This document shows positions 12,380 through 19,317 of a stretch of DNA of 20,256 nucleotides, one piece after another. How positions within the stretch are numbered: position 1 is the first letter of the stretch; every line of letters begins with the position of its first letter. This DNA is from a virus: the IMG/VR virus record IMGVR_UViG_3300020478_000091, positions 1 through 20,256 of that record; one strand, given 5' to 3'. The position numbers and the translations under genes are program-made. Below the pieces are notes generated by a model. It saw only the letters and a program-made list of their open reading frames with translations, ran no database searches and was not told the origin of the DNA.

Positions 12380-13594
12380 GTGGCAGACCTGCACGGATTC
12401 GACAAGGACAGCGCTGAAAAGATCGCGCGCGTGGTCCGCAAGGCATTGGGTGCAGCAGATGGTCAGAAGTCGCACCGCCGGGCCGACGTGTCGGGTCCGG
12501 GAAATCACGTCGCAATCGGGATGATCACCGAGGCGGGTGGAAATACACACAAATTTATTTTCGCGGCTGGCACTTACACCGAGACGGTCGGGAGCAATAG
12601 CGCGGAGTTTCTTGAGATCCCCGACGAGTACTACGCACACGACATCTGTGGGGAAAAACTGGGCATCGGTGACCACGTCTGGCTGGTCGATCACAACAAT
12701 CAGTGGTGGATAATTGACCGCTGCACGCGAAACACGGGCAGCGGTCCCACTGGCGGCGCGTGTTGTGGTTCTTGCGGCGGCGGGACGATCACGGCCTGCA
12801 CACAATGTGACGTGGCACAACCGACTTACACCTTCGACCTGGGTGCGTTCGGTGGCCAGATGCCCGACGATCCTGACTGCTGCGACGAGTTGTGGGCCAG
12901 TCATTTCATCCGGTGGCAATCGGGGTGTGTCTGGGAAGGGGAGGAACTCGACGGGTGCTGCTCGGTTTCGGGTTCACCCCCTAAGTGGACCATGACCGTT
13001 AACAGCACCGACCCCTGGGGGGTAGAACTCAAGGTGGAACTGGATGAGGACTGCGACGGCGTTCTCGACACGTCGGTCACTTATTCCAATCCTTTCCCAT
13101 TTTGCTGCGACTGTGCCAACGCGATGCGGCTTAAGTGCCCCGACGCCTTGCCGACCGGGTGCGATACGATGCCGTGTGAAATCTGCCTGCTACCTGGCCC
13201 GAAGTGTTGCGCCACTTCAAACCTGACGACGAACCTCACGGCGACGATTTCTAACTCGATGGGGTGCCCGTGTGCGGATGGTAAAACCATCAACCTCGGC
13301 TGGCGGCCTAACACCCAGGACTGGTTCGGCAGCGGCCTATTTTGTCACGACACCATCACGGGCGACTCCCACTATGTCGACCTGACGTTGTCCTGCACCA
13401 CCGACGGCGGTGGCTGTTCCGACTTCCGGCTGACCGTCAGTTTCCAGGATGCCTGTAATTCCGGAGGAACCTTTTCTCCGAGCGTGTCGTGCGACTGCAA
13501 CCCTCTTGACCTGCCTTTCGACGGCCTGGCGGTCGACGGGTGCTGTGGTGCGAGTTCAACCGGCGCTAGTGTGACGATCAGAGTGACGGCATAA
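12380..13594 (+). CDS. Cysteine-rich tail-tip / receptor-binding candidate
   Basis: A 404-residue protein with a GTG start at 12380; GAGG at 12367-12370 is 9 bases upstream. The first ~115 residues contain one Cys. The rest holds about 31, many as CC, CxC or CxxC pairs (GGACCGSCGGG, FPFCCDCAN, GPKCCATS). Two related end modules can be seen: DGCCSVSGSPPKWTMTVN near residue 195 and VDGCCGASSTGASVTIRV at the C-terminus. The N-terminal part, with GIGDHVWLVDHNNQWWIIDRC, looks like a virion-attachment domain. Such cysteine density suggests a disulfide-stabilised or metal-binding surface protein, and the last place in the tail block fits a host-binding tip. The family is not recognised and the function is inferred from position and composition. 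Confidence 0.6.
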   Translation: MADLHGFDKDSAEKIARVVRKALGAADGQKSHRRADVSGPGNHVAIGMITEAGGNTHKFIFAAGTYTETVGSNSAEFLEIPDEYYAHDICGEKLGIGDHVWLVDHNNQWWIIDRCTRNTGSGPTGGACCGSCGGGTITACTQCDVAQPTYTFDLGAFGGQMPDDPDCCDELWASHFIRWQSGCVWEGEELDGCCSVSGSPPKWTMTVNSTDPWGVELKVELDEDCDGVLDTSVTYSNPFPFCCDCANAMRLKCPDALPTGCDTMPCEICLLPGPKCCATSNLTTNLTATISNSMGCPCADGKTINLGWRPNTQDWFGSGLFCHDTITGDSHYVDLTLSCTTDGGGCSDFRLTVSFQDACNSGGTFSPSVSCDCNPLDLPFDGLAVDGCCGASSTGASVTIRVTA

Positions 13595-13717
13595 TCACGC
13601 GACCCAAACCCCACGCGAGACCATTCGAGGCCCTTACACGGCAAATACGGGCCTGCAAAACGACCCAGATCAGTAGAAATCCTAGTTTCAGACCATCGAG
13701 CCGCATATTTGCCCCAT

Positions 13718-15322
13718 ATGAGCCGCAACCAACCACTCGCCGACGTTGTCCTCGGCGTGACAGCCTTCAACCGGCCCCGCCTGCTCGAACGACTGATTAA
13801 GAGCGTGCGCGAGTTCTACCCTGCCCTGCCGATACTGGTGGCCGACAACGGCTGGATGCCCGCCGACCTGGAACAGTTCGACGGCGTTACGACTGTCCAC
13901 GTCGAGCGGGATTGTGGGTTGTCTGCGAGCCGCAACGCACTCGCCAGGGCCTGCCCGACCGAGTTTATGGTGCTGGCCGAGGAGGATTTCGTTTTTACCG
14001 ACAAGACCGACCTGGCCGCCGCCCACGCGATACTCGCCCCCGACGAATCTCTCGGCATGGTCGGCGGGTCTCTCGTGGCCGATCGCCAGGTGCAGCACTA
14101 CGCTCGAAACTTTCGACGCGAGACACGCCCCGAGGGCGATGTGCTGCTGGCCTACCCGGCGGGCGGACCCGTCAAGCGACTGACCACGGGCGGGCGTTCG
14201 ATTCCCTGGAGGCGTTGTGAAATGGTTTTCAACTGGGGCATGATCCGTCGCGACCTGATGATCGAGCTACCGTGGGATGAGAACCTTAAACTGGCCGAAC
14301 ACGTCGATTGGTTTCTGAGAATCCAAAACGAGACGGGCTGGACTATCGCCCACACGCCCGCCCTACAAGCCCGGCATGACCGCGAGGAGCCGGGCGACTA
14401 CCAGCAGCACCGACAGCGGGCTGCCGGGTTCCTGGAACTATTCCGGCAAAAGCACGAGCTGCAACGGTTCGAGCATACCCCAGCCACACGCGAGCCGATC
14501 CAGGCCAGCCGCAGCGTGGTGGTTATGGGCGTGGGGCACTCGGGCACGTCGATCGTGTCCAAGATGCTCCAGGCCCTCGGGTGGTACGGCGGTCCAGCCG
14601 ACGAGGAATACGGTGAGCATCCCGGCGTGCGGGATGTCAACGAGGCGGGCTGGCGTTCCCACGACATCGACCTATCGGCGGCGTTTGATCATCTCGACGA
14701 CCTGGCCGGGCCCTGGGTGATCAAAGACCCGCGATTCGTCCACACGCTCGATCTGTGGCTGCCGATCCTGGGCCGACACAAGCCGACGCTGGTCTGGGTT
14801 GTGCGGGATGCCCAGCGGGTCGCCGCGAGCTACGTCAGTCGGGAAGAGTCGACCCGCGACGGTCTGACTGTCGAGGAACTTGAGCGGATGGCGAAGAAAC
14901 AATTCGACGCCTGGCCCTGGGGCAAAGTGCGTGTCGACTATGAGAACATCGCCGACGCGATCGGCTTGTTCGACCTGGTGCGGGCCGGGGTTGGTGATGG
15001 GGCCACCGATCCAGTGCCGCCACAAGCCGAACCGCGAAAGGTGCCGTCGCCGGTTTACGACGGCGAGCCGGGAGGCCCGTGCGTCTGTGACGTGCCAGGG
15101 GACTGTCGGCGGCACCCGGCGATACATAAGGTCGGGCGTTTGTTCGACATCTGCCGAGGGGACGTCCTGACCCCGACAAAGTGCGAGGAGTATCGCCGAG
15201 CGTGGGACGACCAGGCCGCCGGGCTTCAGGTTGTCACCAAGTCGAAAAAGCTAAACACCAACGACGACCCGATGGGGTGCGTCCATCGCGGCGAGTACCT
15301 CGAAAAGTGCGGCGCGGGCTGA
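13718..15322 (+). CDS. Glycosyltransferase-sulfotransferase fusion with Cys-rich tail
   Basis: I use ATG 13718; a TTG at 13709 is in frame and neither start has a good SD. The 534 residues hold two enzymes. Residues ~10-250 are a GT-A glycosyltransferase (GT2/GT12-like): VLGVTAFNRPRLLERLIKSV, GLSASRNALA, and AEEDFVFTDKT with the acidic metal-site triplet. Then comes EHVDWFLRIQNETGW and a His-Asp-Arg. Residues ~265-420 look like a PAPS-dependent sulfotransferase: P-loop VMGVGHSGTS near 270 and VVRDAQRVAASY near 365 (5' and 3' phosphosulfate-binding motifs), with WVIKDPRFVHT between them. The last 80 residues hold eight Cys, ending CGAG just before the TGA, after which the frame stays open with more regularly spaced Cys. 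It may modify a virion or host surface glycan. The substrate is unknown. Confidence 0.82.
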   Translation: MSRNQPLADVVLGVTAFNRPRLLERLIKSVREFYPALPILVADNGWMPADLEQFDGVTTVHVERDCGLSASRNALARACPTEFMVLAEEDFVFTDKTDLAAAHAILAPDESLGMVGGSLVADRQVQHYARNFRRETRPEGDVLLAYPAGGPVKRLTTGGRSIPWRRCEMVFNWGMIRRDLMIELPWDENLKLAEHVDWFLRIQNETGWTIAHTPALQARHDREEPGDYQQHRQRAAGFLELFRQKHELQRFEHTPATREPIQASRSVVVMGVGHSGTSIVSKMLQALGWYGGPADEEYGEHPGVRDVNEAGWRSHDIDLSAAFDHLDDLAGPWVIKDPRFVHTLDLWLPILGRHKPTLVWVVRDAQRVAASYVSREESTRDGLTVEELERMAKKQFDAWPWGKVRVDYENIADAIGLFDLVRAGVGDGATDPVPPQAEPRKVPSPVYDGEPGGPCVCDVPGDCRRHPAIHKVGRLFDICRGDVLTPTKCEEYRRAWDDQAAGLQVVTKSKKLNTNDDPMGCVHRGEYLEKCGAG

Positions 15323-15353
15323 AGCGGCACGATCAAGGCGAAGGTCTTCGCCT
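15320..15353 (+). promoter_or_regulatory. In-frame TGA with SECIS-like hairpin (candidate recoding site)
   Basis: TGA at 15320-15322 interrupts the Cys-rich tail frame. AGGCGAA (15336-15342) pairs perfectly with TTCGCCT (15347-15353) around the loop GGTC (15343-15346), 20 bases after the TGA. Bacterial selenocysteine insertion elements are stem-loops just downstream of UGA with a G early in a small apical loop (GU in known cases), at about this distance. The match is by geometry only, and a hairpin of this size can arise by chance in GC-rich coding DNA. Confidence 0.4.
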
Positions 15354-15490
15354 GCGAGATACTGGGACGTTGCACGATCAAATCGAAAGTCAAAGGCGTG
15401 GACGGGGTCTGCACGTTCTGCCCGCACTATTCGGCCCGACCCAAGGAGGGGTCTGTCAATGAGCGCGAAACGACTGGTAGTAATCAGTGA
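15323..15490 (+). other. Open continuation of the fusion gene beyond its TGA (Cys-rich tail)
   Basis: Read in the frame of the upstream gene, this stretch has no stop until TGA at 15488-15490. It encodes 55 codons with a zinc-ribbon-like layout: KVFAC, GRCTIK, then GVCTFCPHY. With the preceding CVHRGEYLEKCGAG it makes one coherent module in which the TGA occupies a Cys-like position. From memory, similar C-terminal modules in other bacterial and phage proteins have Cys there; this was not checked. No start codon with an SD precedes it, so independent translation is unlikely. It may be a recoded extension (selenocysteine or readthrough) or the remnant left by a TGC/TGT to TGA change. Its last 32 bases overlap the phosphoesterase gene. 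Confidence 0.5.
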
Positions 15491-16307
15491 CCTGCACGCC
15501 GGGTGCCGGGTCGGTTTGTGTCCGACGCATGGGGTGACCCTCGACGACGGGGGCCAGTATTTCCCGTCTGCGTTGCAGATGAAATTGTGGTCAATGTGGC
15601 GGTCGTTCTGGGACGAATTCGTGCCCGAGGCGACCAGGGGCAAACCGTTTGACCTGGTGGTCAACGGCGACGCGATCGACGGGGTCCACCACGGGTCGAC
15701 GACCCAGGTCTCGCACAACCTGGCTGATCAGTTGCGTATCGCCCACGAGATCCTCGAGCCGGTCGTGCGGCGGGCTGAGAACTACTACCACGTCAGAGGG
15801 ACCGAGGCCCACGCCGGGAAATCTGGGGCGACCGAGGAAGAACTGGCCCGGTCGCTGGGTGCAGTGACAAACCGTGACGGGCAATCTGCCCGGTTCGAGT
15901 TGTGGAAGCGGGCAGGCCGTCACCTGGTCCACGTCCTGCACCACCTGGACGGAGGTGGCAACGCCGAGTCGACTGCGATCTTTCGGGAACTGGTCGACAC
16001 GTTCACCGAGTCGGCCAGGTGGGGCCGCCGCCCGCCCGACGTGATCGTGCGGAGTCATCGTCACCGCTACATCAAGGTCGAGATCCCGACCGGGTTGTCG
16101 AAAGGTGCCGAGCGTGGCCGGGAGCCGACGCCGATCGCGGCGTGCGTGGTCACCCCAGGCTGGCAGGGCAAAACCCCGTATGCCTGGAAGGTCGCGGGGG
16201 CACGTTTGCAGACGCCGCAATTCGGTGGCGTGGTGATCGACGGGTCGGGCGACGACGTGGTCGTGCGTGGGCGTGTGTGGACCGTGGGACGAACCGAGGC
16301 GGAATAA
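15459..16307 (+). CDS. Calcineurin-like metallophosphoesterase
   Basis: A 282-residue protein with a strong SD GGAGG at 15445-15449, 9 bases before the ATG. All metal-site blocks of the calcineurin fold are visible: SDLHAG (D11, H13), VVNGDAIDG (D71), RGTEAH at 113-118 where GNHD is usual, HH at 161-162, and RSHRHRY (H200, H202) in place of GHxH. The protein should therefore bind two metals and hydrolyse a phosphate ester or nucleic acid end. The substrate cannot be told from sequence. It follows the glycosyltransferase-sulfotransferase gene and overlaps the next gene by one base, in a block of accessory late genes. GTEAH in place of GNHD is unusual and may set specificity. Confidence 0.85.
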   Translation: MSAKRLVVISDLHAGCRVGLCPTHGVTLDDGGQYFPSALQMKLWSMWRSFWDEFVPEATRGKPFDLVVNGDAIDGVHHGSTTQVSHNLADQLRIAHEILEPVVRRAENYYHVRGTEAHAGKSGATEEELARSLGAVTNRDGQSARFELWKRAGRHLVHVLHHLDGGGNAESTAIFRELVDTFTESARWGRRPPDVIVRSHRHRYIKVEIPTGLSKGAERGREPTPIAACVVTPGWQGKTPYAWKVAGARLQTPQFGGVVIDGSGDDVVVRGRVWTVGRTEAE

Positions 16308-18024: not shown

Positions 18025-19212
18025 TTACCGGCGGGCGACTTTCTTCGCGGGGTTGATTTCGCGAACAACCCGAAAGCCCGTTGCGGCCCCGACGAAAAAC
18101 TCGCCCACCCCTGCCCGGCTGGCGGATCGACTAAGCCACGGGTCTGACCGGAAAGACCCGCCCCGCATCACGACCCAGCCATCTTTCCCCGGCCAGGTGC
18201 CGGTTGTCCATTCCCACACGCTGCCCGACATATCCAACAGGCCCCACGGGTTGGCGGTCATTTGCCCGACTGGGTGCGGCACCTGGCCCGACGTGCGAGC
18301 GTTCCACGACTGCCGGGTCGCGGTCACCAGGTCGTCACCACTGTGCCAGCGTGTTGTCGTGCCCGCCCGTGCGGCGTGTTCCCATTCGGCCTCGGTCGGC
18401 AGTCGGTACAGGTCGCCCGTTTGATCGGACAACCACTGGCAAAACGCCTGGGCGTCGGCACGGGTGACGTTCACCACCGGCAGCACGTCAGCGGCAAGCA
18501 CGTCGCCGAGTTGGTCCCAGGAAAAACCGATCTTGTGAACCCAGTGTCCGTCGACCCGACCCATGCCGCGATTGCGTTCGGCCCACGTCAGGTACTCGGT
18601 CGCGTCGACAAACCGTTTCCACTGGCCGACGGTGACCTCGGTGCGGCCCATATAAAAAGACTTCACCCGTTGACGACTCGCTAGTTCTTGCTGGATTCGT
18701 TTCTTGTTGTTCTCGTTGACTTTCGCGGTGGTCACGACGGTCTCGCGATCCTCGGGCGAGGTGCCCAGGTCAGTCGTGCCGCCGGGCACCCGCACCAGCC
18801 AGCCAGCCAGGTCGGTCTCAGTCATCGGCGGCGGCGGTGCCGGGGCCGGTTTGAAAGCGTCGCCAGAAACAAACACGCCAGCGAAGACCACGACGACCGG
18901 AACGACCCAGGCCGCCGAGTAGGCGAACCACCGACGCGAGTCGCGGCGGCGTTCGACGGGGATCGTGAGCGAGGTTTCGACCCTGGCATCGACAGCGGCG
19001 TCAGGTTGCCCCTCAGTCGCGGCCAGCCACTCGAGGGCCTCGTTGTGGGTCCGCGAAACCACCAGCAGCATCTCGCGGACTTCGGCCATCACGAGGGTCT
19101 GCCGGTCGTCGGCCTCGCCCCCCTCGTCGATCCGCATTTCGAGGTCGGTTGTTCCGAGGTCTAATTCTTGGAGCAACGTTCGCACGTCAGTCTTCAGGTC
19201 TTGGTAGTCCAT
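18025..19212 (-). CDS. Membrane-anchored SUMF/FGE-sulfatase-domain protein
   Basis: I use ATG 19212, preceded by GAGAGAA; the frame runs to 19305, but those residues look non-coding. The 395 residues comprise a charged, helical cytoplasmic part (1-94) and one membrane segment near 95-116 (WFAYSAAWVVPVVVVFAGVF). A Pro-rich linker follows, then a formylglycine-generating-enzyme-type domain (137-385): FYMGRTEVTVGQWKRF, LYRLPTEAEWEHAARAG, NPWGLLDMSGSVWEWT, VMRGGSF and TGFRVVRE. The only Cys in the domain is C258 and none lies where catalytic copper-binding Cys are expected after the WEWT block. It is probably a binding (lectin-like) rather than an oxidising protein. Topology suggests an external sensor or blocker. 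It heads the - strand operon. Confidence 0.85.
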   Translation of the reverse strand: MDYQDLKTDVRTLLQELDLGTTDLEMRIDEGGEADDRQTLVMAEVREMLLVVSRTHNEALEWLAATEGQPDAAVDARVETSLTIPVERRRDSRRWFAYSAAWVVPVVVVFAGVFVSGDAFKPAPAPPPPMTETDLAGWLVRVPGGTTDLGTSPEDRETVVTTAKVNENNKKRIQQELASRQRVKSFYMGRTEVTVGQWKRFVDATEYLTWAERNRGMGRVDGHWVHKIGFSWDQLGDVLAADVLPVVNVTRADAQAFCQWLSDQTGDLYRLPTEAEWEHAARAGTTTRWHSGDDLVTATRQSWNARTSGQVPHPVGQMTANPWGLLDMSGSVWEWTTGTWPGKDGWVVMRGGSFRSDPWLSRSASRAGVGEFFVGAATGFRVVREINPAKKVARR

Positions 19213-19317
19213 CGCTGTTCTCTCAGATGTTGCAACACTCCTATACCACATATAACAGGCGTAACACGTGGCGAAATAATACAAAAAAAACGCATCGGAT
19301 TTCAATTATCTGACAAA
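19213..19317 (-). promoter_or_regulatory. AT-rich intergenic region between integrase and SUMF gene
   Basis: About 105 bases, more AT-rich than the flanks. Read on the - strand, it has an eight-T run shortly after the integrase stop with only a weak stem before it. TTATATG and GGTATAGG follow as possible -10 elements for the SUMF operon. GAGAGAA is the SD of the SUMF gene. A palindromic CACGTG is present near 19267. I see no clear -35 at standard spacing. The region could also hold the phage attachment site, for which there is no direct evidence. Confidence 0.4.

Follow-up and report, generated by a model that had tools for sequence, protein, structure and literature searches.

Introduction

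Escherichia coli fdhF carries an in-frame UGA with a hairpin directly downstream, within the coding region. The published model of the bacterial selenocysteine insertion sequence (bSECIS) asks for a hairpin 16-37 nt from the UGA, a stem of 4-16 bp, a loop of 3-9 nt with G in the first two loop positions and a minimum free energy (MFE) limit of -7.5 kcal/mol (PMC13188914). Here, we describe the same arrangement in a tailed phage, in a window of 20,256 bases that is the complete IMG/VR viral record IMGVR_UViG_3300020478_000091. A gene on its plus strand (13709-15487) holds an in-frame TGA (15320-15322) followed by a SECIS-like hairpin (15336-15353), and the residue at the UGA is very likely selenocysteine (Sec). 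As in fdhF, the loop is GGUC closed by an A-U pair, with a spacing of 20 nt here versus 18 nt; an earlier note on this DNA had named the fdhF loop and its near-equal distance, and the fdhF sequence, matched in E. coli genomes and folding with the loop 18 nt past its UGA, bears this out. Unlike fdhF, the gene belongs to a phage, its product is unrelated to formate dehydrogenase, and no cysteine homologue of it was found in the collections searched.

Virus-encoded selenoproteins have been described in poxviruses, namely the glutathione peroxidases of molluscum contagiosum and fowlpox viruses, the fowlpox SECIS lying in coding sequence (PMC8310308). The phage protein would likewise be a virus-encoded selenoprotein, but the poxvirus enzymes are captured eukaryotic proteins with eukaryotic SECIS elements, whereas the element here is of bacterial type and no cellular relative of the family was found in the genomes sampled. 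In phages, annotated tRNA-Sec genes have already suggested a link with selenocysteine; the passages that report them give tRNA predictions and name no selenoprotein gene or SECIS (PMC10747093, PMC8879037). Our case is a conserved gene and putative SECIS without a phage tRNA-Sec in the fragments examined. The selenoproteomes of marine bacteria have been covered (PMC2398784, PMC9402790), and a 2026 review of prokaryotic selenoproteomes mentions neither phages nor viruses (PMC13188914). A literature search, with subscription literature outside its reach, turned up no phage selenoprotein. The decoding mechanism proposed below would be the known bacterial one, and it is the family and its phage home that appear new.

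Results

An in-frame TGA conserved in divergent phages

Beyond the TGA, the frame stays open for 55 codons (SGTIKAKVFACEILGRCTIKSKVKGVDGVCTFCPHY...), as the earlier note had observed, until it reaches its actual stop, another TGA (15488-15490). The downstream gene and the cysteine/selenocysteine (Cys/Sec) domain served as queries to gather relatives from IMG/VR. Over the domain, the resulting lineages share 36-59% identity with the window; they range from 48 to 66% in G+C, and TGA occupies the same column in all eight, each translated through the stop. No relative found in IMG/VR has TAA, TAG or a cysteine codon in that column; the earlier note had proposed looking there for cysteine in homologues and comparing TGA with TGC or TGT in related phages, and every homologue found has TGA. 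A query restricted to the first Cys motif, which contains neither TGA nor hairpin, again returned only TGA-bearing relatives. Four relatives (L011, L013, L020 and L022) are fusions with a glycosyltransferase (GT) and sulfotransferase-like part, L023 is an unfused protein of ~140 aa with both Cys motifs, and L024 and L025 are unfused short proteins of ~78 residues with the second Cys motif only. Because the TGA is at the same spot with a SECIS-type hairpin each time, it is very probable that the phages encode a selenoprotein family not described before.

The part beyond the TGA evolves as coding sequence. Its invariant residues across the eight lineages are AKVFAC, C39, C52 and C55, and over the whole domain C8, U22, C33, C39, C52 and C55, that is, five cysteines and the predicted selenocysteine. 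The proportion of nonsynonymous differences (pN) is below that of synonymous ones (pS) in 28/28 lineage pairs, with synonymous sites near saturation (for L024/L025, 0.25 versus 0.81). None of the eight lineages has an ATG, GTG or TTG between the TGA and AKVFAC, and ordinary re-initiation therefore cannot make the downstream part.

Taken by itself, the window would have left room for a nonsense mutation or a sequencing error with a decaying downstream part, since no other contig of its own virus spans the TGA site (L001 ends before it). This explanation is practically without probability and already refuted: the earlier note's option of a recent nonsense change is excluded because eight lineages, of which two were assembled twice, have TGA in this one column. 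The second contigs of L011 and L013, assembled independently from different samples, carry the same TGA and differ from the first at 20 and 56 positions, respectively, over ~10 kb. The decay that frameshifts in relatives would have revealed, according to the earlier note, is absent as well. No lineage has a frameshift or a further stop before the natural end of the readthrough frame, and the downstream cysteines are conserved.

A hairpin of SECIS geometry

The window hairpin pairs AGGCGAA (15336-15342) with UUCGCCU (15347-15353) around the loop GGUC (15343-15346), and the earlier description of a 7-bp stem with its loop beginning 20 nt past the TGA was accurate. The RNA folding proposed in that note was less telling: compared with dinucleotide shuffles, the hairpin alone is unremarkable (z = -0.02 for the 41-nt fold, z = -1.6 for the 31-nt fold). 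The peptide AKVFA, moreover, forces four of its inner pairs. A single sequence could not decide the matter, because the fold is not significant and these pairs follow from the peptide. It could thus be argued that the hairpin is a mere by-product of palindromic AKVFA coding and that the UGA is decoded in some other way.

The eight lineages together make this by-product explanation very unlikely. All eight share the consensus GGC(R)AA-GGUC-UU(Y)GCC with an invariant loop, in stems of 6-8 bp whose loop lies 17-23 nt past the UGA. Two pairs are not fixed by the peptide; both are formed in 8/8 lineages, and one of them shows compensatory change, the R-Y pair (24-33), which is always matched, being G-C in four lineages and A-U in the other four. 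Protein trees place roughly two independent double changes at this pair. In the aligned stem 98.2% of 56 cells are paired, a value equalled by 6/500 shuffles, and sliding the stem alignment cuts pairing to ~50% or less. Codon choice points the same way: Lys AAG, Val GTC (in the loop) and the second Ala GCC are kept in 8/8 lineages, including L024 and L025, where GTC and GCC are rare (~15-17% of synonymous choices), and identity at the codon level reaches 77% in the hairpin versus 49% elsewhere. The AKVFA peptide may itself be conserved because of the RNA. By these comparisons selection acts on the hairpin at the RNA level, and it is the conservation of TGA and hairpin in 8/8 lineages that, on the alignments, exceeds chance.

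All eight hairpins fall within the published bSECIS rules for loop, stem and spacing (PMC13188914). Their MFE is -7.1 to -9.0 kcal/mol for the bare hairpin and -9.6 to -26.3 kcal/mol with 50 nt past the UGA. An Rfam scan of the window reported no SECIS and no tRNA-Sec. A DNA scan for the hairpin brought up nine further contigs, which were rejected as not homologous.

UGA elsewhere in these phages and the search for hosts

A sense meaning of UGA throughout these phages or their hosts (Trp, Gly or Cys) would account for the open frame. Yet TGA stops about half of the window genes, several at overlapping ATGA junctions, and ends 3 to 12 open reading frames (ORFs) of at least 120 aa in each of the eight phages, so that in none of them is UGA lost as a stop as under codes 4 and 25. 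Reassignment would also have to hold across lineages of widely different composition and would leave the hairpin unexplained. We regard it as very improbable, and excluded as a change of code because TGA is a stop in the same phages.

Hairpin-stimulated readthrough, in which a near-cognate tRNA (Trp or other) reads the UGA to give a fraction of longer protein whatever the residue inserted, is also compatible with a conserved TGA and a downstream hairpin, and the truncated enzyme would retain its GT and sulfotransferase-like domains. Generic readthrough, however, would not need TGA every time, and the stop is TGA in 8/8; the position and loop of the hairpin fit the bSECIS rules; and the UGA sits within a Cys-rich motif, which in the unfused forms L023-L025 reads C-x-G-U around the stop. 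In L024 and L025, termination at the TGA leaves a product of only 23-32 aa, and low-efficiency readthrough would therefore come without a useful short product. We consider this explanation improbable. General readthrough, which the earlier note had listed along with recoding, fits poorly because the codon is always TGA, is a normal stop elsewhere and is followed by a SECIS-type hairpin with selected synonymous sites; the recoded selenocysteine that the note had also listed is supported by TGA and hairpin in 8/8 lineages.

These phages are probably marine, to judge by their sample identifiers. In a terminase scan for hosts, nothing matched except prophages, all distant, of Herbaspirillum, Nitrosospira and an alphaproteobacterium. 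L022 has a complete tRNA-Gly(CCC) near its integrase (L022:16671-16743), a candidate attachment site; its flanks gave no host because the genes beyond this tRNA are still those of a phage.

The Cys/Sec domain and its protein context

The readthrough gene starts at TTG 13709 or, more likely, at ATG 13718, and its predicted selenocysteine is codon 538. The N-terminal part matches Pfam Glycos_transf_2 (E=2e-6, over the cut-off), and a weak match to Sulfotransfer_3 (E=0.003) is below the cut-off. A full-length structure model supports the GT part alone, and Foldseek matches to it are GT-A enzymes. GT2 glycosyltransferases of Salinibacter phages share ~30% identity with this part; the matches listed cover query residues 10-261 only, and for the Cys/Sec domain there was no match among phage records. 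Over the readthrough protein, the four fused relatives align with the window at 58-66% identity.

Two Cys motifs follow. The first, C-x-C...C-R-R-H-P...K-x-G-R-L-x-x-I-C (15050-15217), is kept in every fused relative as well as in L023, where the GT and sulfotransferase parts are absent. The second, C-x-x-R-G...G-U...AKVFAC...C...C-x-x-C (15278-15457), contains the UGA and supplies the columns invariant in all eight lineages. In the window clade, the Cys/Sec domain is, on the alignments, the C-terminal part of a glycosyltransferase-sulfotransferase-like protein beside tail genes; elsewhere it is a short separate protein. The union of a predicted selenoprotein with a sugar/sulfate-transfer enzyme, which had struck the earlier note as new, holds for this clade, but the fusion is not essential, because the Cys-rich domain is the putative selenoprotein and occurs unfused in L023, L024 and L025.

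Profile searches of Pfam, PHROGs, NCBIfam and the PDB found no family or solved structure for the Cys/Sec domain, and AlphaFold gave no usable model of it (pLDDT 40). A genome scan with IKAKVFAC returned no relative. The sole match from a profile search of 299 + 385 Pseudomonadota genomes was discarded as a chance overlap with another gene. Our guess is that the domain is most likely a small metal-binding or thiol/selenol redox module.

Genomic contexts

The gene occurs in at least two unrelated contexts: the tail module of an integrase-bearing phage, and phages bearing ribonucleotide reductase and transfer-messenger RNA (tmRNA). The window is of the first kind, a tailed phage with integrase that encodes terminase, portal, major head protein and tape measure. 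In the tail-module phages, unfused L023 included, the Sec gene directly follows a conserved and very Cys-rich tail-region gene (window 12380-13594, plus strand; tblastn identity to relatives 34-79%), whose protein has no Pfam or PHROG match and whose L023 homologue stops just short of the Sec ORF. Downstream on the plus strand, a metallophosphoesterase-like gene (15459-16307; Pfam Metallophos E=0.002, below the cut-off; relatives at 47-86%) overlaps the readthrough frame, so that the actual stop lies inside it, and the overlap is kept in the fused relatives. The minus strand carries a gene of FGE type and a tyrosine recombinase. The former (18025-19305) encodes a protein that has an FGE-sulfatase domain and an apparent membrane segment; it adjoins the integrase and has a relative at the same place in L022.

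In L024 and L025, the short Sec gene has ribonucleotide reductase on one side and a vWA gene on the other, and tmRNA lies downstream of it. The reductase and the small genes following it are just 5' of the short Sec gene (L024:6004-9526, L025:6487-9539), and a redox link between the two is conceivable from this arrangement. The tmRNA genes score 105 and 101 bits with Rfam (L024:11039-11454, L025:10987-11411), and in L025 about a dozen tRNAs form an array as well.

Discussion

The conserved TGA, the conserved frame beyond it, the covarying hairpin of SECIS geometry and the ordinary TGA stops elsewhere, all seen in the sequence, are consistent with the following scheme. The hairpin 13-31 nt past the UGA at 15320, with its GGUC loop, would serve as a SECIS element of bacterial type; SelB of the host, bound to this hairpin, would deliver Sec-tRNA-Sec at the UGA; and with selenocysteine inserted, translation would go on to 15487, completing the Cys/Sec-rich domain. 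We infer that the residue is selenocysteine and that the host supplies SelA, SelB, SelC and SelD, and the proposed step involving SelB and Sec-tRNA-Sec follows what is established for the Sec system.

Several points weigh against selenocysteine at this position. The CxGU motif does not always keep its upstream partner cysteine, which in L011 is Arg. Only one pair of the stem covaries, with the two or so independent changes placed on the tree, and the bare hairpin is slightly weaker than the -7.5 kcal/mol limit in 4/8 lineages unless flanks are included. The stem has no bulged U, in contrast to that of fdhF. Searches for tRNA-Sec came up empty for the window and for the eight virus records covered, most of which are fragments. 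Finally, to our knowledge nearly all selenoproteins have a Cys-containing homologue, and none was found here in IMG/VR, phages, plasmids or ~680 sampled Pseudomonadota genomes.

With these points considered, selenocysteine remains our favored assignment, and we think it likely that this is a selenoprotein family of tailed phages' own, which among the phages found always carries Sec and never Cys, occupies two or more unrelated contexts and ties replication to Sec-making hosts. The short hairpin makes the proposal directly testable in E. coli, whose SelB may not tolerate a stem that lacks the bulged U. Gene finders truncate such genes at the UGA, and other families may therefore be hidden in viral databases. 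If the assignment is true, a viral gene relies on the expanded genetic code of its host, its full expression would be limited to Sec-decoding bacteria, and selenium would be a direct factor in phage biology.
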